From Myxococcales bacterium (GTDB taxonomy: Bacteria > Myxococcota > UBA727 > GCA-2721815): a stretch of 64,000 nt of DNA. Position 1 is the first letter of the stretch; every line of letters begins with the position of its first letter. A model generated the notes under the pieces. That model had not been told where the DNA came from and made no database searches. It saw only the letters and a list, made by a program, of their open reading frames with translations. A program made the translations under genes and the position numbers. The stretch lies in NCBI GenBank assembly GCA_002721815.1, contig PBLQ01000011.1, positions 1-64,000 on the forward strand. Direction: 5' to 3'. Of this stretch, positions 1 to 16,234 are shown in pieces.

Positions 1-312
1 GCGATCACGGCCAACGCGGGTGCTGACCAAACTGCTGCAAATGATCTCATTGGCGAATTGGATGCAGCCATTGCATACATCAGTGAGAACCGTTCTGAGC
101 TGGGTGCTTTCCAAAACCGCTTGGAATACACCATCAACAACTTGAAGCAAACCGCTGAAAACCTCACTGCTTCTGAATCTCGCATCAGAGACGTAGATGT
201 TGCCGCTGAAAGTGCCGAAATGGCGCGGGCAACCGTCTTGCAACAAGCTGCCGTAAGCGTTTTGGCTCAGGCGAATCAGCAGCCACAACTGGCTCTGAAA
301 TTACTCGGCTAG
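1..312 (+). CDS. Flagellin, C-terminal part (5' end outside window)
   Basis: The frame is open from base 1 to a TAG at 310-312, so this is the last 103 codons of a flagellin that begins left of the window. The visible part is the C-terminal D1/D0 helical region: it carries ESRIRDVDVA and ends in VLAQANQQPQLALKLLG, the classic flagellin tail that packs in the filament core and is bound by FliS. It is nearly identical to the end of the complete flagellin at 780-2027, so the two are tandem paralogues. An ATG-like start inside the fragment (near 58) is not a real start, because homology continues upstream of it. Confidence 0.95.
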   Translation, partial: AITANAGADQTAANDLIGELDAAIAYISENRSELGAFQNRLEYTINNLKQTAENLTASESRIRDVDVAAESAEMARATVLQQAAVSVLAQANQQPQLALKLLG

Positions 313-333
313 AACATAATCTAGTACGAAACC

Positions 334-366
334 AAAAAGAGGGCTCATGGAGCCCTCTTTTTTTTT
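334..366 (+). terminator. Intrinsic terminator after first flagellin
   Basis: A perfect 9-bp stem (338-346 with 350-358) closes a 3-nt loop and is followed by a run of nine T. It lies 22 bases after the flagellin stop, so the two flagellin genes are separate transcription units. Confidence 0.9.
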
Positions 367-779: not shown

Positions 780-2027
780 ATGGTAATGTCAATTTTAAAT
801 AATATTTCTTCATTAAATGCACAACGCTCCCTCTATAACTCCGGTCGCGACCTACAAAATACAATGGGCCAACTCTCATCCGGCACCCGAATCGTACGTG
901 CCAGTGATGATGCCGCAGGCTTAGCAATTAGTGAGAAACTCCGTGCTGAAATCCGCGGCATCAACCAAGCGACACGGAACACTCAAGATGCAGTGAGTAT
1001 GATTCAAACGGCTGAAGGCGCGATGGAAGAGATTCACGCAATGCTTCAACGTATGCGAGAACTGGCAGTTCAAGCATCAAATGACACCCTGGAACTCAAT
1101 GATCGCGCTTTTATTAACGATGAGTTAGGTCAGTTAGCGGAGCAAATTAATGACATCGGTGACAGAACAGAATTCAACGGGAAAACCCTTTTGGCAGGGG
1201 CATTGTCGTCACAGTTGAGTACAGCTTCTGAAGTTGTGCCCGGCAGCATTATCCATACTTCCGATGGTACAGCAGTAACCAACGTTGACGTTTCCGGGGT
1301 TAACAACGCAGCAACAGCACCAATGACTTTAACTTTAACGGGCGATACCACTTCAAATACGCTGACTTTAACGGACGCTGTCAACGGGATTACGCAAAAT
1401 TTGTCAATCGCAGCCATCAATGCAAACAGCTCATCAACATTGGACTTTTCTGTCTTAGGGGTCAAAATCACGATCGCAAGTAATGTTGGCTCAACTTCGA
1501 CCGAAATTATTCAAGGATTTACGCAGGCGACCAATAATGAAATCGTTATTGCCGGTGCACAAACTGCTGGAACAGGAACCATGGAGTTCATGACAGGTCC
1601 GGACGAAGGGGATACCATGAATGTGTCATTCCGAAACGTCAAAATCGAAACGACCAACAATGGTGGAGCAACCGAAATGGCTGCACTCCATGCCAGATTA
1701 TCCGAATTCACCAACGCCATTAACGCCAATGCGGGTACCGACCAGCTAGCCGCCGAAAATTTGATTGGCGAACTCGATGACGCGATCGCGTATATCAGTG
1801 AACATCGTGCCGAACTGGGGGCGTTTCAGAACCGAATGGAATACACCATCAATAACCTCCAGCAGACTTCGAATAACCTGGTGGCCTCAGAAAGCCGAAT
1901 CAGAGACGTAGACGTCGCTCAAGCAAGTGCAGATTTAGCCAAATCCACCGTTCTACAGCAGGCTGCCGTAAGTGTTTTGGCCCAGGCCAACCAACAGCCG
2001 CAGTTAGCTTTGAAATTGCTTGGCTAA
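780..2027 (+). CDS. fliC: Flagellin
   Basis: Structural subunit of the flagellar filament, exported by the flagellar type III system and polymerised under the FliD cap. The 415 residues have the expected layout: N-terminal D0/D1 helices (about residues 1-145, with SLNAQRSL, GTRIVRASDDAAGLAISEKL and MLQRMRELAVQASNDT), a Ser/Thr/Ala-rich variable D2-like centre (about 146-290), and C-terminal D1/D0 helices ending QPQLALKLLG. The ATG at 780 is chosen because AGGAG sits eight bases before it; the in-frame ATG at 786 is too far away. The Thr/Ser-rich centre offers many sites for O-glycosylation, fitting the glycosyltransferases downstream. Paralogue of the truncated flagellin at the left edge. The gene symbol is generic; the copies cannot be numbered here. 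Confidence 0.97.
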   Translation: MVMSILNNISSLNAQRSLYNSGRDLQNTMGQLSSGTRIVRASDDAAGLAISEKLRAEIRGINQATRNTQDAVSMIQTAEGAMEEIHAMLQRMRELAVQASNDTLELNDRAFINDELGQLAEQINDIGDRTEFNGKTLLAGALSSQLSTASEVVPGSIIHTSDGTAVTNVDVSGVNNAATAPMTLTLTGDTTSNTLTLTDAVNGITQNLSIAAINANSSSTLDFSVLGVKITIASNVGSTSTEIIQGFTQATNNEIVIAGAQTAGTGTMEFMTGPDEGDTMNVSFRNVKIETTNNGGATEMAALHARLSEFTNAINANAGTDQLAAENLIGELDDAIAYISEHRAELGAFQNRMEYTINNLQQTSNNLVASESRIRDVDVAQASADLAKSTVLQQAAVSVLAQANQQPQLALKLLG

Positions 2028-2139: not shown

Positions 2140-3528
2140 ATGAGTACATCCAATCACTTAGACATCGTAAAATCCATGGGGGTTGGCTCTAGCTTCGATA
2201 CGCCCAAATTGATCTCCGGATTGGTCGAGGCAGAACGCTATAAAATTAATGCGGTAGAGACAGCGAAAGAGAATGTCGAAACAAAATTGTCCAGTCTCGG
2301 CACCATCATCACCAGTGTTCAAGGTTTAAAAACCGCATTCCAAGCTTATGAAAACATGGGTCCCATCACACTTACCTCTGCTTCAAACCCCACAGGGTTT
2401 TCAGTCAGTGCCAAAGAGGGCGCAGTAGAAACCAATTACGATATTCAAGTGAACGCATTGGCAAAAGTAGCAAAAGCGCAGTCACTGAATATTGCAGACA
2501 CCACCACCACGCCCGGAACCGGAACCCTGGATCTGGCAATCGCAGGACAAACCTACAGTATCAGCATCGCTGCTACCGATAACTACGCGGCGATCGTCAA
2601 TAAAGTTAATGCCTCCGGCGCCCCAATCACTGCCTCGCTGATTCAGAATGCAGGTGCTGGCGCCAACGAAAACTACATCACGCTCACCACGGCGGATACT
2701 GGCTACTCAACTTCGGGAACAGTCAGCGATGCCCTGAGCATTACCACCGACAGCCTCGGGATTTTTAATACGAGCGCCCGCGCGAACTACATCACGCAGG
2801 AAGCCACCAATGCACAAATAACTGTCGACGGAAATTTAACCTTTATCAGGAGCTCAAACACCATTACCGACGCCCTGCCCGGCCTGGATCTTAACTTACT
2901 CAGTACAACATCCAGCGCAGAAACGCTCAACCTGACGGTCGATACATCCATCACTCAAACAAATGTACAAACCATGATCGATTTCATCAATGATACGATC
3001 ACCCTCTTGTCAGCAGAAACAGACAACACTCCCGGAACAGACACGCAGAAAACATTTGCTGCAGACTCCACCCTTAGGCGTTTACAAAGGGACTTAGCCA
3101 ATATCGTTTCCAAACAAGTCAATCCCAGTGCTAGCATTCGAGGTTTAATGGACATGGGGATTTCGAGCGATTCAACCACAGGCTTGATCACCATTGATAG
3201 CACGAAGTTTGCAGCAGCCCTTAACAGCAACTCTAGAGAATTAAACGAAGTTTTCACAACGGCCACCAATGGTATCATCGACCACATGATCAGCTTCGAA
3301 AGCACCATGAATCACAGTCTCGACGGTATTCTAACCAATAAAAAAGGTGGTCTTGAAGACAAGGTGAAAAAGTATGAAGACAAGATCCTTGATCTTACAG
3401 ACTACATTGAAAACTATGAAGCAAGACTTCTGAGACAGTTTACTGCAATGGAAGAAAAAGTAAGCGCACAAAACGCAATGAAATCTTACATTGAAATGCA
3501 AATGGACCTATTGAAAAAGGATGATTAA
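2140..3528 (+). CDS. fliD: Flagellar hook-associated protein 2 (filament cap)
   Basis: FliD forms the cap at the filament tip and guides flagellin folding and insertion. The 462-residue protein has a FliD_N region near the start (about residues 12-115; GSSFDTPKLISGLVEAER, then a helical stretch before the variable part) and a FliD_C region (about 220-450) ending in a long coiled coil with LLRQFTAMEEKVSAQNAM, the hallmark motif. Length is typical of the family. The start has a GAGGAAA ribosome site about ten bases upstream and lies just after a sigma-28-like promoter. fliS begins on the base after its stop codon, so the pair is co-translated. Many Thr/Ser/Asn residues in the centre resemble the flagellin centre. 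Confidence 0.95.
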   Translation: MSTSNHLDIVKSMGVGSSFDTPKLISGLVEAERYKINAVETAKENVETKLSSLGTIITSVQGLKTAFQAYENMGPITLTSASNPTGFSVSAKEGAVETNYDIQVNALAKVAKAQSLNIADTTTTPGTGTLDLAIAGQTYSISIAATDNYAAIVNKVNASGAPITASLIQNAGAGANENYITLTTADTGYSTSGTVSDALSITTDSLGIFNTSARANYITQEATNAQITVDGNLTFIRSSNTITDALPGLDLNLLSTTSSAETLNLTVDTSITQTNVQTMIDFINDTITLLSAETDNTPGTDTQKTFAADSTLRRLQRDLANIVSKQVNPSASIRGLMDMGISSDSTTGLITIDSTKFAAALNSNSRELNEVFTTATNGIIDHMISFESTMNHSLDGILTNKKGGLEDKVKKYEDKILDLTDYIENYEARLLRQFTAMEEKVSAQNAMKSYIEMQMDLLKKDD

Positions 3529-3909
3529 ATGCGTGCAAACAATCTGTACAAACAACAATCGCTAAAAACAGCATCACAAGAGCAAATAATGATTCTGTTA
3601 TTTAAAAAAGCATTAGCTAATCTAAAGGTCCTTGAAAAAGGTGACTTAAAAGACACGCCAGACGAGCATTTTAAACTAGGGGAAAACACCATAGACATCG
3701 TCGTGGAATTACGTCAAACACTCAATCACGACGTAGCCCCAGAACTCTGCAAACAGTTGGAAGACTTATATAACTACATCATCTCTAGGCTCGCAGTCGG
3801 TCTCACCAACTACGAAGCGAAGCCTTTCAAAGAAAGCATCAACGTACTGGAGCCAATCGTTGAGGCATTTACAGCAGCGGTACAAAACGCAAACCAGCAA
3901 ACCAGCTAA
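3529..3909 (+). CDS. fliS: Flagellin export chaperone FliS
   Basis: FliS binds the disordered C-terminus of flagellin in the cytoplasm and prevents premature polymerisation. The 126 residues match the family in size and pattern: an N-terminal Y-x-x-x motif (NNLYKQQSLKTASQEQIMILLFKKAL), four helices, and the conserved LYNYIISRLAVGLTNYEA segment. It abuts fliD and its TAA shares a base with the ATG of the next gene, a glycosyltransferase. That overlap ties glycosylation to the flagellin chaperone at the level of translation. Confidence 0.93.
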   Translation: MRANNLYKQQSLKTASQEQIMILLFKKALANLKVLEKGDLKDTPDEHFKLGENTIDIVVELRQTLNHDVAPELCKQLEDLYNYIISRLAVGLTNYEAKPFKESINVLEPIVEAFTAAVQNANQQTS

Positions 3910-5855
3910 TGAAAAAAAGAATCCGACACATATCAACGACCCTTCCGCCAGATATTCGGTCAGCTGCCACAATGTTGGACCGAGACCATAATTCTGGGGA
4001 TAATGCGAAAGAGTTGTACCTCAGCTTATCAAAATCGATAAGCTCAACAACCAAACTTAAAAAAACACTAAAAAAAAGCCACTTCAAAGCCGTGGTGAAA
4101 AACTTTATTTACGGTGCCGCGCTTTATCTCGACAACAAAAAAGACGAGGCCCTGCCATTACTAATCGATTCCCAAAAAAGCGCCGAGAACTGGTTCATAA
4201 ATTACCTAGCGGGTCTATGCCTTATTGACTTCAACCGTATAGAGGATGCTAAGCCAATAATTGACAAGGGTATAAAGCTTAACGAAAACTCCGCGGACCT
4301 TTGGCATCTGGCGGGCGTTTATCATCAAACAAAACAAGATGAGAAAACAGCGTGTAATGCTTACAAGCGTTCCATTGAGATAGAACCAAACAGGTCTCAT
4401 ACGCTTACCAATCTCGCAACTGGACTTGAGAAACTAGGACAATTAACAGAAGCACTCGAACATTCTTCGCGCGCGTTAGAGTTGACTCCAAACGCGCTAC
4501 CCCTTCTGCACAATCACGCGCACATTTTAACCAGACTCGGCAAATTCAATGAAGCGACCATCCTTTTTGAGCATATTGCTAAACAAACAAACGCCTCGCC
4601 TATAAGTATCTCTTCATTTTTCTACAACCAACTTTTCAATGGAGAAAAACTAGATCTCAAGACCATTGAAAAGAACATTGTTTTTGGCAAAAGCTTTCTA
4701 AATCGGTACAACCCCATCGACCTTAAATCGACGCCTTTAAATGGTCGGCGATTACGGGTAGGCTACATTTCAGGTGATTTCAAACGTCATTCCTGTTCAT
4801 TTTTTATCGAACCGATTCTCAAACACCACACTTCCCAGATTGAAACCTTTTGTTTCTCATTGACGAATTTCGTTGACCAATTCACCCATCATCTTGCCCA
4901 ACTACCAGATCACTGGTTTGACATGAGCCAGCTTACTGATCAAAAAGTCACAGAATTCATTCGCAGTAAAGAACTGGACATATTAGTGGACCTCTCTGGC
5001 CACACGGCACACAACCGACTCAGCCCTCTTTGTGAGCGAGCTGCTCCGATCCAAATGAATTATCTCGGGTTCCCACGAAGCACCTGGCTGCCTACCATCG
5101 ATTATCGCTTGGTGGACTGGCACACCGACCCTGAAGGTTACGATAGCCACACAACCGAGTCGTTATTACGCTTGCCAGAATCTTTTCTTACGTACCAACC
5201 CCTTTTCGGCGCACCACCGATTGAAGAACCTCCATGCCTTCAAAATGAAGAAATCATCTTCGGTTCTTTTAACAATCCTCTTAAACTGAGTGATGAGACG
5301 CTACGACTATGGCAACTCATTCTACATGAGGTTCCAAACAGTAAACTCATGCTCAAAGGGATTCTGTTTCGTCACGAATTCTTAAGAAATCAAGTCATCG
5401 AACGTTTTGCGAAGCATAAAATATCAGCCGAGCAACTTCTTATTTTGCCACCGACTGAAGGCGATGCTGAGCATCTCTCTTCTTACAACAAAATGGATAT
5501 TGGGTTAGATCCGTTCCCTTACCATGGCACCACCACAACCTTCGAAGCTCTTCTGATGGGGACGCCAGTCATCTCCCTGTGTGGTGAAGAGCACATGAGC
5601 CGAGTGGGAAAAAGCATTCTCAGCAATATTGGCGCACAAGAGCTTATTGCCCAATCAGACGACGAATATATTGAAATTGCGAAATCATTGGCTAAGGATC
5701 GAAAGAGAGTTTTGTCCTATAAAAGTTCCTTGCGTGACAGGCTCTTGAAATCAACTTTGTGTAACCACCAAAGGTTCGTATCTTTCTTAGAACGTATTTA
5801 CTTTCACGTTCATGAGCACCACTGTAACACTTCACGTTCAAACATGAGTGCGTAA
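3909..5855 (+). CDS. TPR/GT41 O-GlcNAc-transferase-like protein, copy 1
   Basis: Predicted cytoplasmic glycosyltransferase of family GT41 (SPINDLY/OGT type), which moves a sugar such as GlcNAc from a UDP-sugar to Ser/Thr of proteins. The 648 residues have TPR repeats at about 60-240 (ADLWHLAGVYHQTKQDEK and following units) and a two-lobed catalytic region at about 275-630. Visible hallmarks: GYISGDFKRHS near 283 (region of the catalytic-lobe His in human OGT), LDILVDLSGHTAHNR, APIQMNYLGFP, and YHGTTTTFEALLMGTPV near 538. It overlaps fliS by one base and is followed 14 bases later by a paralogue. By context the substrate is probably flagellin, or FliD; that is inference. Sugar donor unknown. 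The gene looks more AT-rich than those right of 9900. Confidence 0.85.
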   Translation: MKKRIRHISTTLPPDIRSAATMLDRDHNSGDNAKELYLSLSKSISSTTKLKKTLKKSHFKAVVKNFIYGAALYLDNKKDEALPLLIDSQKSAENWFINYLAGLCLIDFNRIEDAKPIIDKGIKLNENSADLWHLAGVYHQTKQDEKTACNAYKRSIEIEPNRSHTLTNLATGLEKLGQLTEALEHSSRALELTPNALPLLHNHAHILTRLGKFNEATILFEHIAKQTNASPISISSFFYNQLFNGEKLDLKTIEKNIVFGKSFLNRYNPIDLKSTPLNGRRLRVGYISGDFKRHSCSFFIEPILKHHTSQIETFCFSLTNFVDQFTHHLAQLPDHWFDMSQLTDQKVTEFIRSKELDILVDLSGHTAHNRLSPLCERAAPIQMNYLGFPRSTWLPTIDYRLVDWHTDPEGYDSHTTESLLRLPESFLTYQPLFGAPPIEEPPCLQNEEIIFGSFNNPLKLSDETLRLWQLILHEVPNSKLMLKGILFRHEFLRNQVIERFAKHKISAEQLLILPPTEGDAEHLSSYNKMDIGLDPFPYHGTTTTFEALLMGTPVISLCGEEHMSRVGKSILSNIGAQELIAQSDDEYIEIAKSLAKDRKRVLSYKSSLRDRLLKSTLCNHQRFVSFLERIYFHVHEHHCNTSRSNMSA

Positions 5856-5869
5856 GAGGTCAACCCGGC

Positions 5870-7699
5870 ATGGCCATATCGTTTGAAATTTTATTCAATC
5901 AGGATTTCAGCAGCAATCATGACTTGGTGTTTTCTTCTAATGCGCCGCATCAAATCAAAGAGGCAAACAGAGCTTGGCAGGAAAAGAAATTCAGCAAAGT
6001 CTGTCTTAGTTTGCGTGCATTAAAAGATAATTTCGAAGATGACGCCTACTTTTGGCTAATTTACGGTCGCAGCCTTATTGAATTAAAAAACTACCATGAA
6101 GCATTAAATTGCCTCGAGAGAAGCATCGAACTCAATGCTGAAAAGGCAGACACACACCACTTTAAAGGCGTGGTCCATCAACATCTTTCCCAATACCAGG
6201 ACTCCAAAAAATGTTACCTTTCTGCACTGTCTTTACAGGCCGAACGGCCTCTTACCTTAAGTAATCTCAGTTGTATTGAAGAGGCCCTTGGAGATATTCA
6301 AGGTGGAATGGAATATGCGGAACGCGCGATCCACCTCAACACCACCGATACGGCCCTGATTCATAATTATGGAATCATGTTAGCAAAAAACGGCCAGGTA
6401 AAAGATGCGATCGGTTGGTTTAAAAAAAATACAGTAAAACAAAGACCTTTTCCTGAATCACTTAGCTCGCTTCTTTATCACCAACTTTTTCTTACAGAGA
6501 AGGAAGACGGCAAAGACGCTGCGGACAATACGCGGTTGGTGGCATCAACATTTTCAAAAAACACCTATCGTCAAACAAGTCGCCCTTCTAACACAAAGAA
6601 GATTAAAATCGGTTACATTTCGTCTGACTTCAGACGGCACTCCTGTGCTTTCTTTATCGAACCCATACTGAGGCATCATTCGGACGATTTCGAAGTCTAC
6701 CTTTTCCACAACAGCCCCGTTTCAGACGACTACACCAAACATTTACAAACTTTAGTCCCCCATTGGTTCGATATTTTCTATGAGACGGACAACGAACTTA
6801 CAGAGTTCATACGTAAGCAAGAATTAGACATTCTCATAGATCTCAATGGCCATACAGGTGGAAACCGTTTGGCCGTGATCGGACAACGTGTTGCGCCGGT
6901 TCAAATAAATTATCTTGGGTACCCACAAAAGACTTGGCTTCCGGAAATGGACTATCGCTTGGTGGATGAGCTTACTGATCCAACAGAAACGGAACGGCCA
7001 AATGGGGAAACTTTGTTACGAATGCCTTCAACGTTTCTTGCTTATGAGCCCTTAATTGGGAGCCCCACAATACAACCACCACCAGTGCATCAAAATGGCC
7101 ATATCACCTTTGGTTCTTTCAACAATCCGATGAAAATAGGTCCCGAAACGGTTTCTGTGTGGTCAGAACTCATGCGCGCTGTTCCACAGTCCATCATTAA
7201 ACTCAAATCGCACTGTCTACGCAGTGAAAACCAGCGCATAAGAATCACCCAGCTCTTTACGAACGAAAATATTGCTCCTGACCGGATTTGTTTTTTAAAC
7301 CCCGTTGATAATGATACCGAACACTTAGATGCCTATAATTCCATTGATATTGCTCTAGATACTTTTCCGTATAATGGCACCACCACTACTCTCGAAGCGT
7401 TATTAATGGGAACCCCCGTACTGACACTCCGCGGTACGAGTCACCGTTCCAGGGTCAGCTACAGCATTCTTGCGAATCTAGGATTAAATGAATTCGCCCC
7501 TGAAACAGTTGAGGACTTTGTTAGCCAAGGTATGCTGCTCTCCAAAAATCCTCAATATCTTGGAGCTTTGTCCGCCTCTTTGCGATTTTTGTTGTCCAAG
7601 TCGCCGCTCAACCAACATCAGGTTTTCATTGAAAACTATGAAAACCTTTTAAAACAAACATTAATCCCAATCCTTGAATTAGCGCAGAGTCACCAATGA
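5870..7699 (+). CDS. TPR/GT41 O-GlcNAc-transferase-like protein, copy 2
   Basis: Second GT41 protein, 609 residues, same architecture as its neighbour: TPR units at about 30-190 (YFWLIYGRSLIELKNYHEAL and following), then catalytic lobes with GYISSDFRRHS near 247, LDILIDLNGHTGGNR, APVQINYLGYP, YRLVDELTDP and YNGTTTTLEALLMGTPVL near 501. The pair arose by tandem duplication but has diverged throughout, most in the N-terminal TPR part, so they may recognise different sites or flagellins. A GAGG ribosome site precedes the ATG at 5870. The end overlaps the next gene by four bases (ATGA). Role in flagellin modification is inferred from location; no donor specificity can be read. Confidence 0.85.
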   Translation: MAISFEILFNQDFSSNHDLVFSSNAPHQIKEANRAWQEKKFSKVCLSLRALKDNFEDDAYFWLIYGRSLIELKNYHEALNCLERSIELNAEKADTHHFKGVVHQHLSQYQDSKKCYLSALSLQAERPLTLSNLSCIEEALGDIQGGMEYAERAIHLNTTDTALIHNYGIMLAKNGQVKDAIGWFKKNTVKQRPFPESLSSLLYHQLFLTEKEDGKDAADNTRLVASTFSKNTYRQTSRPSNTKKIKIGYISSDFRRHSCAFFIEPILRHHSDDFEVYLFHNSPVSDDYTKHLQTLVPHWFDIFYETDNELTEFIRKQELDILIDLNGHTGGNRLAVIGQRVAPVQINYLGYPQKTWLPEMDYRLVDELTDPTETERPNGETLLRMPSTFLAYEPLIGSPTIQPPPVHQNGHITFGSFNNPMKIGPETVSVWSELMRAVPQSIIKLKSHCLRSENQRIRITQLFTNENIAPDRICFLNPVDNDTEHLDAYNSIDIALDTFPYNGTTTTLEALLMGTPVLTLRGTSHRSRVSYSILANLGLNEFAPETVEDFVSQGMLLSKNPQYLGALSASLRFLLSKSPLNQHQVFIENYENLLKQTLIPILELAQSHQ

Positions 7700-9195
7700 A
7701 GAAGCCCGGAATATCTCTGTGTATGATCGTTCGCGACGAAGCGGCACATCTACCGAAATTTTTAGATTGCGCAGCAGGACTCTGGGACGAACTGTGCGTT
7801 GTAGATACGGGTTCGAATGACAACACCATTGAGATATTGCGCGAGCAAAATGCCGTTATCAAGCAAGTGGAATGGCAAAATGATTTTGCATTCCACCGCA
7901 ATCAAAGCCTCGACCTAGCGAAAATGCAATGGGTCGTTTTTCTAGACCCAGATGAGTTGGTCGGCCCAGATACAGTACAAGAAATAAGAAATTTAGCCAG
8001 TGACGATAACCTGCAGGCTGGCGCGGCCACGATTATTATCAGAGACCGTTGGCCAAACGGGACGGTCCGCGACAAAAGGCTTCTGCGTGTTTTTCGAAAC
8101 GAGCCCCAAGTAAGATTTAGAGTGCCTATTCACGAAGAGGTCACAAGCTCTGTAACCACCATGTTACAAGAAAAAAATCTAGGTTTAGCCCATCTACAAG
8201 GTATTGTGGAACATGTGGGCTACCTCCGTGAAACAGCGGTAGAGAAAGACAAGAAAAATCGTGATTGTGATATTTTACAAAAAGTCCTGCAAAAGGACCC
8301 TGAGGACCTTTACTCATGGTACAGACTACTTGATGTAGCACGCTACTGGAACGACAGTATTTTACTTAAAACGAATGCTAAAAAAGCATTAGAGGTGCTT
8401 CACCGCTCTCCCACAACTAATCTTCCCTCATTTATTGGAGATTTATTGGTCCTAATCGCCAATGCGCTTTTTAAAGACAATCCAAATGAGCAGTTACTTC
8501 TGTTAGAGCGTTGGAGACATCGAATTCCCCACCACCCAGCGCTTTGTGCGCAGCTGGGGATCGTCAATGAAGCGCTTGGTAATATTGAAAGCGCAAAAGC
8601 TTATTATCTGGAATGCTTGGACTCCGAGCAAGTCACTGGCGATGTTGCACTGGTTACGACCACCCCCACATTGGGTTTGGCTCGGTTATCTATGATGCAA
8701 AACCACATGGGTCTTGCTCTACAAAATGTAGAGGCCGCCCTCGCTTTCAACTACAAATCTATTGAAGCCATTTACGTAGGCATTGGTATTTGTGGCGCTG
8801 CAGCAGCAAATGAAGGTGTCGAAGATTTCTCGCGCGCATATAAAGAAAAATATGGTGAAACCAACGAACTGCATGCCGCCCTCGGTGAGTATTATTTCGG
8901 CAAAGGTGATTTTGCTAAAAGCGTGCCTCATTTTCAAATAAGTGCAGGTTCGCCAGCCGCTGGACGTCCGGCGCTCAAACTCTCTCAGGCGCTTTTCGCA
9001 TTGGGTAAATACAAGGATAGTAAAGCCGTTTTAAATCACATTCAGAATCATTATCCCGAGGCGAAACTTGCTTTATGGATAATCGAGCAAATCAAAGACA
9101 CCAAAGAAACTTTGCACCAAGAAGAGCTTAGCAACTATGTCAATGAGCTCCTTCAACCTTGGGTTTCAGCGCTTCCAAAAATAAGCGGATCGTAA
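7696..9195 (+). CDS. GT2-family glycosyltransferase with TPR-like C-terminus
   Basis: Predicted cytoplasmic glycosyltransferase, 499 residues. The N-terminal GT-A fold (about 1-230) starts ISLCMIVRDEAAHLPKFLDC, has the nucleotide-sugar-binding VVDTGSNDNT near 34-43 and a DxD-like FLDPDE near 81. This variant resembles the SunS/TPR-linked GT2 group. The rest (about 250-499) is helical with TPR-like repeats (ALGEYYFGKGDFAKSVPHF). Translation is coupled to the upstream GT41 gene by an ATGA overlap. A plausible role is extending or initiating the same glycan on flagellin. It is the last gene of the run; a bidirectional terminator lies 465 bases on. Confidence 0.8.
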   Translation: MKKPGISLCMIVRDEAAHLPKFLDCAAGLWDELCVVDTGSNDNTIEILREQNAVIKQVEWQNDFAFHRNQSLDLAKMQWVVFLDPDELVGPDTVQEIRNLASDDNLQAGAATIIIRDRWPNGTVRDKRLLRVFRNEPQVRFRVPIHEEVTSSVTTMLQEKNLGLAHLQGIVEHVGYLRETAVEKDKKNRDCDILQKVLQKDPEDLYSWYRLLDVARYWNDSILLKTNAKKALEVLHRSPTTNLPSFIGDLLVLIANALFKDNPNEQLLLLERWRHRIPHHPALCAQLGIVNEALGNIESAKAYYLECLDSEQVTGDVALVTTTPTLGLARLSMMQNHMGLALQNVEAALAFNYKSIEAIYVGIGICGAAAANEGVEDFSRAYKEKYGETNELHAALGEYYFGKGDFAKSVPHFQISAGSPAAGRPALKLSQALFALGKYKDSKAVLNHIQNHYPEAKLALWIIEQIKDTKETLHQEELSNYVNELLQPWVSALPKISGS

Positions 9196-11435: not shown

Positions 11436-12410
11436 ATGTCTGATTCTGCCTCAAAACCATTGAACAAACCCCAACCCCTCAGTGAGATTCAGGGTGAGGC
11501 GGAACAATGGTTTATCACCGCAGATGGCACCAAATTGTTCTTTCACATTTCCAACCCACCCGATGCCAAGGGGCCCCCTTTTGTGCTCTGTGATGGCCTG
11601 GGGTGCGATGGTTACGTCTGGAAGTACCTCCGCCGTAACTTTGGGGCCAATCACCCCATGATTCACATCCATTATCGGGGGCACGGAAAAAGTGATGTGC
11701 CCACCGATTTGACCACGATCACCGTAGAAAAAACAGTATCGGACTTTCAGCAAATCCTCGGTGCCATTGGCTTAGAGGAAGCCATTTTCTGCGGGCATTC
11801 CATGGGCGTTCAAGTGGCCCTGGAGTACTTTCGCCACCGCCCCAAAAGCGTCAAAGGCCTTGTGCTGTTGTGTGGGTCCTACGAGTTTCCACTACACACA
11901 TGGCACGGGGGACACGACCCGTCCTTTCCCACCCCTTTTTCCAACCGTGTGATGAAAAAAGTATTTCCTCTCGTATCGGGGTCGATGATTCATTTCTCAC
12001 GTTTTCTCAACCCCATCTGGAAGAGAATGATGGCCACCGAGCTCAGCTTTCAAATTGGTGCACGCCTAGAACTCAACCCCCACCGGGTCAAAAAAGAGGA
12101 TTTCATGCCCTACCTCGAGCATTTGTCCCAAATGGACATGCGGGTTTTTGGACACATGGCGCGCAGTCTGGCTGAACACAGCGCTGCCGACATTTTGCCC
12201 AGTATCGAAATCCCCACCCTGGTGGTCGCAGGGGGCAAAGATACCTTCACCCCAGCTTGGCTTTCACAACAAATGCACTGGCGCATTCGGGGGAGCGAAT
12301 ACCTGTGCATCTCTGATGGCAGCCATACCACACCCATCGAGCACCCAGACATGCTGAACCTGCGTTTCGCCAAATTCCTAGAAAAGCACTATGAAGGCGG
12401 ATCTCTTTAG
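11436..12410 (+). CDS. Alpha/beta hydrolase
   Basis: Predicted cytosolic serine hydrolase of the alpha/beta-fold superfamily, about 324 residues. The nucleophile elbow GHSMG is near 120-124, the acid is likely the Asp in GGKDTFTP near 267, and the catalytic His is in DGSHTTPIEHPD near 296. The oxyanion region is VLCDGLGCDGYVWKY near 50. A cap insertion (about 150-235) with HFSRFLNPIWKRMMATE separates the core strands. Substrate unknown. Start: ATG at 11436; a TTG at 11430 is closer to the AGGAG at 11413-11417 and cannot be excluded. The end overlaps the convergent DUF4340 gene by four bases. Confidence 0.85.
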   Translation: MSDSASKPLNKPQPLSEIQGEAEQWFITADGTKLFFHISNPPDAKGPPFVLCDGLGCDGYVWKYLRRNFGANHPMIHIHYRGHGKSDVPTDLTTITVEKTVSDFQQILGAIGLEEAIFCGHSMGVQVALEYFRHRPKSVKGLVLLCGSYEFPLHTWHGGHDPSFPTPFSNRVMKKVFPLVSGSMIHFSRFLNPIWKRMMATELSFQIGARLELNPHRVKKEDFMPYLEHLSQMDMRVFGHMARSLAEHSAADILPSIEIPTLVVAGGKDTFTPAWLSQQMHWRIRGSEYLCISDGSHTTPIEHPDMLNLRFAKFLEKHYEGGSL

Positions 12411-13873
12411 AGATTTTGTTTGCGCATTTGCTCTTCGAGACTTTTACGCACGTCGGGCGGTAAGCTGTTAAAGCCTTGCGCCTGATTGAAGTTCATGGGC
12501 GGAGGAGCCACTTTCTTAAACAAATCGACCCCTCGCTCAAAACGAGTTTTCTGAAAAGAACGGACCAGATAGGTACCGCCATCAATGGGGCTTTTCACGT
12601 AAGTCTGTGCGTCTCCCTCGGTGAGGTCACGCCCAAAAATGAGGGCGGCTTGTTGACCGTCTGCCTGCTGAACCCTGACCTCCAAGGACGGTTTTTTAAA
12701 CCCAAAACCAACTTGGTTTTCAAGACCTACAAAAGATGCGGCCTTGGTATTTTTGAGGGAACTCAGCTGGCGCACCACTGTGGCAGGATCAAACTCGAAT
12801 GCGTCGGGCAACTTTTTGGGCGACGTGATCGCCCACGCCCCCGCGTTTTTCTCGACCACGGTTTTGTTTTGTCCGGAGATGATTTCCAATTTGGTAACCT
12901 GCTTATCGTCAAAAGCCACCAAGTCCATGGCGCGCAGCGCATCCAAGCCACCCTTAAATTTTTGCACACTGCTTTTAGTCAACAGATACACTTGTTCCTT
13001 GTCGGCCACCTTTACATACACCTGGTTCTTGTCGTTCTCGCTGCCGATGTGCAGCGTTAAAGACTTGCCCTCTTTCTTTTCAACAACCACTTGAGTGTGT
13101 GCACCACCAAAGCCCATTTCGTCGTCTTTCTTAGGCTCATCGACAAAAGCAACGGCGCGCAAGCTGGGCAAGGCGTCTACCAACCGCTTGGCCTCAGACA
13201 CACCAAACCGAAAGCCAGGTGCAGTTTTTACATCTTCAGCCAACTTGATTTGGCTTTGGGGCCCTTCCCCTTCGAGAACCAAAGCAAAACCTGCCTGTTC
13301 CACCGGTTTGAGTAACACGCGTGTGATTTCTTCTTTCTTCAGGTTCCAAAGACCACGCCCACGCCAATCAATGGTTTTTTTACTGACCAAAGACGCTAAT
13401 CGGGTACTCGCTGAAAAGACCTTGTCACTCCCAGATTCTCGCAAATAGTTACCGCCCTTCGCCGTGCGCTTGCCAATCACCAAGGACACCGCCTGACCTT
13501 TCTCGCTAGAAAGAATCACTTCCGTTCCTGTTTCGGCGGTCACTTCGTAATCGCCGTGTGCTTCCTTACGTTGGGACACCATAAAAGAGGAGCGTACTTT
13601 ACCCACCTCTTCTAAAACCTTCTCCACAGCCTGACCATCCGCAGGCACCTGCTTTGCACCGTCCGCCACAGCAATCTGCCATTGACCGTCTTTTTGGGAC
13701 AATCGGGCCGCGTTCTTTCCTTTGATTTCTACCTGACGTATGGCGCTTCCGTCAAAGTCCTTAAAGCTCAAGGTTTGTACCCCAACGCTTACCTGCTCTT
13801 CTTGAGTGGCAAAGAATACGCCTCCCAAGACCACCAATGCCCCCAGGGCGATCACTGCAGAACGGTTCATCAT
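12407..13873 (-). CDS. DUF4340-domain protein of a Gld-like ABC system
   Basis: Membrane-anchored extracytoplasmic protein, 488 residues, with one N-terminal hydrophobic segment (about 4-22, AVIALGALVVLGGVFFA). The rest consists of repeated DUF4340-type beta-rich units: VRQVEIKG-like strands, SLVIGKRTAKGGNYLRESG and LTLHIGSENDKNQVYVKVADKEQVYLL are typical (a strand, then ligand-like Gly, then Val-Tyr-Val). It ends in a Pro/Gln-rich tail. It is the last gene of a four-gene set with a GldG-like protein, an ABC-2 permease and an ATPase, the usual context for this family. Function of such sets outside Bacteroidota is unresolved. It starts 15 bases after the GldG-like stop codon. Confidence 0.8.
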   Translation of the reverse strand: MMNRSAVIALGALVVLGGVFFATQEEQVSVGVQTLSFKDFDGSAIRQVEIKGKNAARLSQKDGQWQIAVADGAKQVPADGQAVEKVLEEVGKVRSSFMVSQRKEAHGDYEVTAETGTEVILSSEKGQAVSLVIGKRTAKGGNYLRESGSDKVFSASTRLASLVSKKTIDWRGRGLWNLKKEEITRVLLKPVEQAGFALVLEGEGPQSQIKLAEDVKTAPGFRFGVSEAKRLVDALPSLRAVAFVDEPKKDDEMGFGGAHTQVVVEKKEGKSLTLHIGSENDKNQVYVKVADKEQVYLLTKSSVQKFKGGLDALRAMDLVAFDDKQVTKLEIISGQNKTVVEKNAGAWAITSPKKLPDAFEFDPATVVRQLSSLKNTKAASFVGLENQVGFGFKKPSLEVRVQQADGQQAALIFGRDLTEGDAQTYVKSPIDGGTYLVRSFQKTRFERGVDLFKKVAPPPMNFNQAQGFNSLPPDVRKSLEEQMRKQNL

Positions 13874-13888
13874 GTCTCCTTTAAAAGA

Positions 13889-15505
13889 TCAAACTTGAAT
13901 GGTGTGTCGACGTCGTTCTCTGGTACGCCACCGAATGACACCGTAAAGGCAAAACAAGAACGGAACGCCGAGCATGTTGCCATATTTCACGCCGTTACGG
14001 GTGGCATCACTCAAATCTTTTTCCAAAGGCGCCGCGGTCATGCCACGGGTCCGCATGGAAAGCAACGCTTCGTCGAGCATTAACCAGTCGATCAAATTCA
14101 GCACAAAAGCTTGTCCCAGGCGGCCGCCCACTTGGTCCCACATGAACGAAGAAGTTCCAACAACGACGATACGACCATCTTCTTTGCTCTCTGCCAATGC
14201 GCCCTCGGCTCCGCCAACGGCATTCGCGAAATGCGACTTAAACTTACCCTTGGCCACCACAGCTAAATCGTAGGGCCCGGTAAAACTCACCTGCTCTTGG
14301 TTCCAATCACGTGTGGGCATCAAATCGGTGGGATAAGTCTCGGTCCAGCTTTTGGCGGAGGATTTTGCCAAAGTGGTGAATTCCACTTGGTCGTTGCTCT
14401 CGTAGGACAATGGCGCGGCATAAGGGAAAACAAGGTTGCCCAAACCGTGGGTAATGGCGCTGTTGCCTTCCAGCTGAGCCACTCGGGGCATAAAGGGGTA
14501 TTGCACAGGGATGTTCACCACCATGAAACCTCGCCGCTGAGCAACGCTCAACTGAGCGCTTTCCACATCGGCCACCAACTCGTCCTTCAGCTCGACTCCA
14601 TAGGTTTTCAACATGGGCGCGAGACCATGAACAGCGTCTGTGATTTCAAAGGTCCTCATGTCCACATGCAAGCGATCGAGGAAGAAAGCCACCGAACCAC
14701 CGTTCATGATGAACTGGTCAATGGCCGCTTGACCTCCAGGTACAATCCCCTCTTTGGGGCCTACGACGAGTAAGGCGTCTACGTCATCATCGATCACAGG
14801 GTTTTCGGCCGTGAGTTCAACACTGCGCACATCGTAAATCTGGGACAAGACTGTTTGCAGTTGCTGAATTTTACTTTCTTCGTGGTCGTGAATCACACCC
14901 AACACTGGCGTTTTAGAGCGCGTCATTTTTCGGATGAGCGTGGTGATGTCGTATTCTAAGGTTGCAATGTTTTGGACCACTGGAATCACTTCAGAGGATT
15001 CTTGGTAGCGAATGGCAATGCCCATGTAGGCACGCTTGGTTTGCTGCTGGTCATCTTCAAGCACTCGGATTTCTACCGGTTGCACGCCTAAGGTTGCCAA
15101 CTCTTGCTCTACACTGGTGGCTTCACGAACGGGGCGCCCAAAGATATCCCGTTTCATTTCTTTCTTCTTCTCTTTGTCTTCGGCAGTTTCCTGTGAAGTG
15201 GGGTCTACGAATTCAAAGGCAACCTTACCTTTGGACGCAGCCCGATACTCCTGCAACAAATCGCGAACGTAGCGACTGTAGCTGGAATAGGGAGGCGGTA
15301 AATCAGAGGTAAAATACGCACTAATGGTCACCTGGTCTTCCAATGCCTCAGCTGTCTCCTGCGACGCCTCAGACAAAGTGAAGATTTGATTCTCAGTCAA
15401 ATCCACCCGGGTAAAAGTCCCCACGGAGATCAGATTTAAAAAGATCAGAGACCCTAAAACGGAAATCAATACAACGGATGCACTCTTTGAACTGTTTCTC
15501 ATCAT
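13889..15505 (-). CDS. GldG-like auxiliary component of ABC transporter
   Basis: 538-residue membrane protein of the family annotated as ABC-type transport system involved in gliding motility, auxiliary component. It has an N-terminal anchor (about 10-30, VVLISVLGSLIFLNLISVGTF), then DLTENQIFTLSEASQETAEAL, the typical start of the extracytoplasmic domain, and a C-terminal membrane segment (about 507-525). The middle contains a ThuA/GATase-like fold (DALLVVGPKEGIVPGGQAAIDQFIMNGGSVAFFLD). It lies 9 bases downstream of the permease gene. Gliding is not implied: homologues are widespread in non-gliders. Confidence 0.85.
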   Translation of the reverse strand: MMRNSSKSASVVLISVLGSLIFLNLISVGTFTRVDLTENQIFTLSEASQETAEALEDQVTISAYFTSDLPPPYSSYSRYVRDLLQEYRAASKGKVAFEFVDPTSQETAEDKEKKKEMKRDIFGRPVREATSVEQELATLGVQPVEIRVLEDDQQQTKRAYMGIAIRYQESSEVIPVVQNIATLEYDITTLIRKMTRSKTPVLGVIHDHEESKIQQLQTVLSQIYDVRSVELTAENPVIDDDVDALLVVGPKEGIVPGGQAAIDQFIMNGGSVAFFLDRLHVDMRTFEITDAVHGLAPMLKTYGVELKDELVADVESAQLSVAQRRGFMVVNIPVQYPFMPRVAQLEGNSAITHGLGNLVFPYAAPLSYESNDQVEFTTLAKSSAKSWTETYPTDLMPTRDWNQEQVSFTGPYDLAVVAKGKFKSHFANAVGGAEGALAESKEDGRIVVVGTSSFMWDQVGGRLGQAFVLNLIDWLMLDEALLSMRTRGMTAAPLEKDLSDATRNGVKYGNMLGVPFLFCLYGVIRWRTRERRRHTIQV

Positions 15506-15514
15506 GCACCTCCT

Positions 15515-16234
15515 TTATTGACGCGAGGAAGCCAAGGTTCGCGTGGTCAACAGCAAACCGGCCCCCGTTAATGAAAAGTAAAAAATAAGGTCACGGGTAT
15601 CTAAGACCCCGCGGGCGATGTTTCGAAAGTGGTAATCCACCGAAAGAAATTCAAACACCGAACCCATGGAGGCCGGCAAGAACACGGCTGTTCTATCGAT
15701 GATGTAAAAAGCGAAACAGAGCAATAAGCCAATAATAAACCCAACGATTTGGTTGCGGCTCAATGATGAGGCCCAAAGACCCAGAGCAATGAACGACGCT
15801 GCCATTAACAACAAGCCCAAATAACCGCCAACGGCTGGCCCCCAATCAAAACTGCTGTTATTCGCGGTTAAGTTGGCCACAGACAGGGCGTAAGGCAGGG
15901 TGAGCAACAGGCCAATGGCCACGATCACCAATGCTGCAAGGAACTTCCCAAAAACCACGTGAGAGTCTCTGATCGGCATGGTCAGCAGCAGCTCGATGGT
16001 GCCCGCTTTGCGTTCTTCCGCCAACAAGCGCATGGTCAATGCCGGTGCGAACACCACAAAAAGCAAAGGTGCCAAGTTGAAGAACTCTCTTAAGGAAGCC
16101 TGCCCCACCAGGAACAACGTGTTGAAATAAAAATATCCTGACAACAGCAGGAAAACGCCGAGGGTAATGTACGCCATGGGCGAGTTAAAAAACGAACGGA
16201 TTTCTCTTTTGGCAATCGCAGTTACTGCAGACAT
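15515..16234 (-). CDS. ABC-2 type permease (GldF-like)
   Basis: Integral membrane subunit, 239 residues with six hydrophobic helices, of an ABC-2 exporter. It starts with AIAKREIRSFFNSPMAYITLGVFLLLSGYFYF, typical of the GldF/NatB-type family, and includes LLAEERKAGTIELLLTMPI, the cytoplasmic coupling segment found in these permeases. It sits 13 bases after the ATPase gene and before the GldG-like gene. Substrate unknown. Confidence 0.9.
   Translation of the reverse strand: MSAVTAIAKREIRSFFNSPMAYITLGVFLLLSGYFYFNTLFLVGQASLREFFNLAPLLFVVFAPALTMRLLAEERKAGTIELLLTMPIRDSHVVFGKFLAALVIVAIGLLLTLPYALSVANLTANNSSFDWGPAVGGYLGLLLMAASFIALGLWASSLSRNQIVGFIIGLLLCFAFYIIDRTAVFLPASMGSVFEFLSVDYHFRNIARGVLDTRDLIFYFSLTGAGLLLTTRTLASSRQ

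Follow-up and report, generated by a model that had tools for sequence, protein, structure and literature searches.

Listeria GmaR, in which an N-terminal GT2 domain is followed by helical or tetratricopeptide (TPR) repeats, is both a flagellin O-GlcNAc transferase and the MogR antirepressor (PMC9638930). Caulobacter FlmG is a soluble enzyme of TPR + GT-B layout that is dedicated to flagellins, acts as a single enzyme and uses pseudaminic acid as donor (PMC7591256). The Maf flagellin glycosyltransferases likewise modify flagellin in the cytoplasm, but belong to a different family. In plants, SPINDLY (SPY) is a nucleocytoplasmic protein O-fucosyltransferase that combines TPRs with a GT41 domain, and the pBGF3 flagellin island of Burkholderia glumae (L085) carries a TPR/GT41 gene in the order flagellin-fliD-fliT-TPR/GT41. 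Here, these systems are compared with a locus of a Myxococcales bacterium that lies in the first 64 kb (the window) of the 320-kb contig PBLQ01000011.1, where fliS, encoding the flagellin export chaperone, is followed by genes for two TPR/GT41 proteins (GT41a and GT41b) and for a GT2 protein with C-terminal TPRs (the GT2-TPR protein). The reading that we favour, with modest confidence, is that flagellin undergoes O-glycosylation in the cytoplasm, by a GmaR-like enzyme that is ancestral and by a pair of predicted O-fucosyltransferases that has been added to it. The parts are known, from GmaR, the FlmG-like layout and SPY; the combination is new. The earlier note on this DNA knew of no well-described system of this make-up, and no description of the three-gene combination was found in the literature; however, FlmG (compared by description), GmaR and the B. 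glumae island are close kin. The island differs in that vioA and other sugar genes follow, there is one GT41 gene and a GmaR-like gene is missing.

GT41a (3909..5855, plus strand, 648 aa) overlaps fliS by one base (TAATG), GT41b (5870..7699, plus strand, 609 aa) follows after 14 bases, and the GT2-TPR gene (7696..9195, plus strand, 499 aa) overlaps GT41b by four bases (ATGA); this order and spacing, described in the earlier note, were confirmed from open reading frames and Pfam matches. GT41a and GT41b are TPR-carrying members of GT41, with Glyco_transf_41 (PF13844) matches of 161 and 157 bits, respectively (cut-off 25), and the genome has no GT41 gene besides theirs. Their best solved relative in a PDB sequence search is Arabidopsis SPY, ahead of OGT (for GT41a and GT41b, respectively: SPY 299 and 277 bits, TtOGT 211 and 211, human OGT 211 and 164). 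A comparison of structure models with human OGT had been proposed for both proteins; for GT41a, the eight SPY chains head the ranking in a fold search (8dti, with GDP-fucose bound, E 2.6e-33), above OGT (5.5e-25). The model is moderate (predicted local distance difference test score (pLDDT) of 69), and uncertain domain orientation keeps template modelling scores low (~0.48), so that the ranking alone is used. The two proteins differ from SPY in being bacterial, in having about five TPRs rather than eleven and in being encoded within a flagellin operon, and their function is a prediction.

Published structures assign donor selection to three positions, K689/A731/Y744 for GDP-fucose in SPY (PMC10027727) and L866/R904/C917 for UDP-GlcNAc in human OGT (PMC10027727; PMC9715652). 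Lys 689 and Tyr 744 reportedly clash with uridine and with the N-acetyl group of GlcNAc (PMC10027727; PMC9715652). SPY K665/K689/A731/Y744 correspond to K459/K483/S525/Y538 in GT41a and to K422/K446/A488/Y501 in GT41b, giving donor triplets of K/S/Y and K/A/Y, respectively, against L/R/C in human OGT. The Leu866/Arg904/Cys917 signature of OGT is absent from both proteins, and SPY S496 and T747, which contact the substrate or fucose, are conserved in both. The GDP-fucose pathway is present in the genome (gmd 533 bits, cut-off 415; fcl 506 bits, cut-off 500). The residues favour GDP-fucose, not GlcNAc, as the donor of the pair. The GlcNAc donor of the earlier note is not borne out, SPY being the best structural relative and the three donor residues being SPINDLY-type.

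GT41a and GT41b are sisters in the tree (support 100/99), with 46% identity in the catalytic part and 31% in the TPR part. Thus, the pair is most simply explained by acquisition followed by duplication. It occupies the junction between fliS and the GT2-TPR gene, which is closed in relatives, and only 8 of the phylum's 195 genomes carry GT41; we infer that the pair was inserted here rather than lost elsewhere. A contig scan with the pair as query returned two Microcystis loci only. Cyanobacteriota, the first candidate for the host phylum, was dropped, as photosystem genes are missing from most relatives and a single relative has two strong Photo_RC hits; the flagellar gene set suggests Myxococcota. 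Flagellar surroundings are seen in genome G079 (fliC-fliD-fliS-GT41), in G003, where the GT41 gene lies behind a second flagellin (fliC-fliD-fliS-fliC-GT41), and for the long-match GT2-TPR genes of relatives; around the GT41s of G016, G027 and G043, the 10-17 kb examined contain no match to flagellin, FliD or FliS. In Burkholderia glumae and in Cupriavidus, which are not of this phylum, GT41 is flagellar-linked as well. Chance does not account for the cluster, as many relatives likewise have a glycosyltransferase gene behind fliC-fliD-fliS.

The GT2-TPR protein carries a GT2 domain (PF00535, 43 bits) and weak TPR matches in Pfam. Its best solved match in the PDB sequence search is the GT domain of Listeria GmaR (22ao, E 1.8e-22), followed by the peptide S-glycosyltransferase SunS (7msn, E 6e-13), and it scores 65 bits against TIGR04195, below the family cut-off. 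Motifs of the nucleotide-sugar site are conserved (VDTGS, DF..RN, DxDE and HxGY), with DPDE aligning with DADE of GmaR, and the order of an N-terminal GT2 domain with a DxD-type motif followed by TPRs is that of GmaR. The protein is shorter than GmaR (499 against 637 aa), and the search gave no match to the C-terminal part of GmaR, only to the GT domain, leaving room for remote similarity. An antirepressor role through MogR binding is not supported by the sequence. The structure model, built without an alignment, is poor (pLDDT 40), and no fold search was therefore based on it. GT2-TPR matches are found in 40 of the 195 genomes of the phylum. Among 14 regions examined in relatives, the match spans at least 415 aligned residues (a long match) in 12, and in each of these the gene has flagellar neighbours, with fliC-fliD-fliS immediately before it in ten (L103-L110, L113 and L115) and fliA next to it in two (L102 and L112). 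No flagellar markers were seen around the other two, a partial gene at a contig edge (L111) and a shorter, weaker match (L114). Given this placement in 12/12 long-match relatives and the kept motifs, the gene appears to belong to the regular flagellar set of the phylum, as part of the conserved core rather than as an accessory, and its product is itself most likely a transferase acting on flagellin. The flagellar O-glycosylation module that the earlier note had put forward is thus upheld, by these 12 relatives and by the GT41 linkage in G079 and G003. Its assignment of the GT2 protein as a glycan extender is not, as the protein is similar to GmaR, whose own target is flagellin, and is kept in relatives without any GT41 match.

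The putative substrates precede the transferases. Flagellin 2 (780..2027, plus strand, 415 aa; Pfam Flagellin_N 151 bits, Flagellin_C 88 bits) is a candidate glycan acceptor, with Ser and Thr making up 25% of residues 141-330, and FliD, the filament cap (2140..3528, plus strand, 462 aa; Pfam FliD_N/FliD_C), is a possible further one, with 23% Ser and Thr. The contig end cuts through flagellin 1: its C-terminal part is at 1..312 (plus strand; Pfam Flagellin_C 96 bits), the gene running past the contig start, and its N-terminal part is most likely at the end of contig C47, where positions 3-380 encode flagellin residues 1-126 with 74% identity to flagellin 2. fliS itself is at 3529..3909 (plus strand; Pfam FliS 71 bits). 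The Pfam matches of the flagellins, FliD and FliS all exceed their cut-offs. A third, divergent flagellin of 493 aa is encoded at a distance from fliD and fliS (contig C2:86361-87842; L034:6362-7843); its hypervariable insert resembles a von Willebrand A domain (FTFDTSGSM; VWA_2 E 0.009, below the VWA_2 cut-off).

In the proposed model, the module would be encoded behind its own substrates and their chaperone and would act on flagellin, possibly also on FliD. The GmaR-like protein would put a sugar, probably GlcNAc as in GmaR, directly on Ser/Thr of flagellin. A TPR/GT41 gene would have arrived between fliS and the GT2-TPR gene in this lineage and then duplicated, its products being predicted SPINDLY-type protein O-fucosyltransferases that would consume GDP-L-fucose. 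The TPR arm would hold the flagellar protein, and modification would precede export by the flagellar secretion system. What the sequences show directly is gene content and order, homology, the active-site residues, the genes of the GDP-fucose pathway and the comparative neighbourhoods; activity, donor, acceptor, any allotment of one transferase per flagellin or site and the order of action are inferred.

In other GT41 loci, the active-site residues were compared with the neighbouring sugar genes. K/A/Y GT41s lie directly downstream of, or ~1 kb from, the GDP-L-fucose synthase gene in four Azospirillum plasmids (L073, L076, L078 and L081), where the SPINDLY-type GT41 also adjoins type I secretion genes; these are candidates for bacterial protein O-fucosylation outside flagella. 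The B. glumae GT41, beside vioA (dTDP-sugar), has G/Q/Y, pointing to a different donor, and a GT41 on a Desulfolutivibrio plasmid, in a locus where the CDP-glucose genes rfbF and rfbG follow (L116:5383-9391), has V/C/V, which suggests a CDP-sugar. As K at 689 alone is also seen in proteins without Y744 or without nearby fcl, only the combination of K and Y was used as the signature. We tentatively propose that the locus encodes the first flagellin O-fucosylation system, with flagellum-dedicated bacterial SPINDLY-type enzymes beside an ancestral GmaR-type transferase, and that SPY positions 689/731/744 predict the donor of GT41 enzymes across bacteria; nothing directly relevant to flagellin O-fucosylation was found in the literature. 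Within the phylum, fcl and gmd are both present in 3/3 genomes with a K-and-Y-type GT41 (G000, G043 and G079; adjacent to each other in the latter two) and both absent from the five with another GT41 (0/5; Fisher p 0.018), in a test that was designed after the signature was known.

Several points weigh against O-fucosylation of flagellin. The numbers in the phylum test are small, with two of the five genomes with another GT41 being congeners, and the fcl match of G079 (287 bits) is under the curated cut-off. The Azospirillum GT41 neighbourhoods are mutually related and non-flagellar, and two further K/A/Y loci of Azospirillum have no fcl within 5 kb. GT41a has Ser for Ala at SPY position 731, leaving two of the three residues exact. 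The GT41 pair groups with SPY in a FastTree analysis (support 0.88); with a better tree model, a clade of the pair with human OGT is not rejected (approximately unbiased test, p 0.29), and deep placement is undecided. There are no sugar-synthesis genes within the cluster itself. Finally, the genome encodes PseC (446 bits, cut-off 424), PseG (302 bits, cut-off 154) and, besides PseF-like cytidylyltransferases, two synthases of the NeuB family, with which a nonulosonic acid donor is also possible.

On account of these last genes, the main rival, to which we give a minor share of the probability, is that the GT41 pair works as FlmG does, with the TPR arm binding flagellin and a nonulosonic acid (pseudaminic or legionaminic-like) being added from a CMP-sugar. 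FlmG shares the TPR + GT-B layout and is soluble and sufficient for pseudaminic acid modification of flagellin (PMC7591256). No flagellar Maf was found in the genome, where the single PF01973 match is a 291-aa protein on contig C64, far away, and this was also counted in favour. However, the GT41 active-site residues fit a GDP-fucose enzyme (FlmG's own residues being outside the comparison), and the NeuB-type gene scores higher as a sialic synthase than as PseI, with both scores under cut-off.

Two further readings are improbable, to about the same degree. In one, the view of the earlier note, each of the two GT41 proteins is an O-GlcNAc transferase serving one flagellin, and the glycan is extended by the GT2 protein. 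This would fit the membership of OGT in GT41, the equal number of flagellins and paralogues (two each) and the faster divergence of the TPR arms than of the catalytic parts; the reported clash of Lys 689 and Tyr 744 with UDP-GlcNAc argues against the donor, however, and since relatives keep the GT2-TPR gene without any GT41 match, it cannot in general serve to extend a GT41 sugar. In the other, the glycan is built stepwise: fucose is first placed on flagellin by one GT41, and a second sugar is then added to it by the remaining GT41 or by the GT2 protein. Fringe, which adds GlcNAc to O-fucose, is an analogue, and the three adjoining transferase genes with overlapping reading frames agree with such a pathway, but solved relatives of both types act directly on Ser/Thr/Asn/Cys of proteins, and the GT2-TPR protein works without GT41 in most relatives. 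It is very unlikely that the GT41 enzymes target mainly other cytoplasmic proteins and share the operon for expression only: the GT41s lacking flagellar neighbours in G016, G027 and G043 and the many intracellular proteins on which Arabidopsis SPY acts would allow it, but the overlap with fliS and the independent flagellar linkage in G079 and G003 speak against it.

Behind flagellin 1 is a terminator-like hairpin of 13 pairs plus a T run (334..362, plus strand), from a consensus scan in which the regional total of such sites is not above chance. Sigma54 and sigma28 promoter patterns occur at chance level only. Beyond the 3' end of the GT2-TPR gene, strand and gene content switch, with a pgeF-like gene on the minus strand. 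Further downstream (12407-16234, minus strand) are genes of a GldG-like ABC system, whose products, named by sequence only, are a 239-aa permease-like, a 538-aa and a 488-aa DUF4340-like protein. Contig C47 carries flgK, flgL, a gene for a 756-aa protein and the flagellin N-terminus. The 756-aa protein, encoded between flgL and flagellin 1 (L033:987-3257, minus strand), matches no Pfam or NCBIfam family; as distant homologues occupy the same place in L072, L103 and L109, it is a conserved, undescribed flagellar-cluster gene. Its identification by eye as a class I adenylate cyclase is backed by no Pfam match and was rejected.

The comparison indicates that, in a diderm phylum far removed from Listeria, GmaR-type transferases are a regular flagellar gene. 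For only a minority of bacterial GT41 enzymes is the donor known, and the O-GlcNAc transferase label that several carry is a default annotation. With flagellin as a concrete candidate substrate, GDP-fucose as the predicted donor and filament mass or a fucose lectin as a simple read-out, this operon could make the function of bacterial SPINDLY-like proteins open to direct testing.

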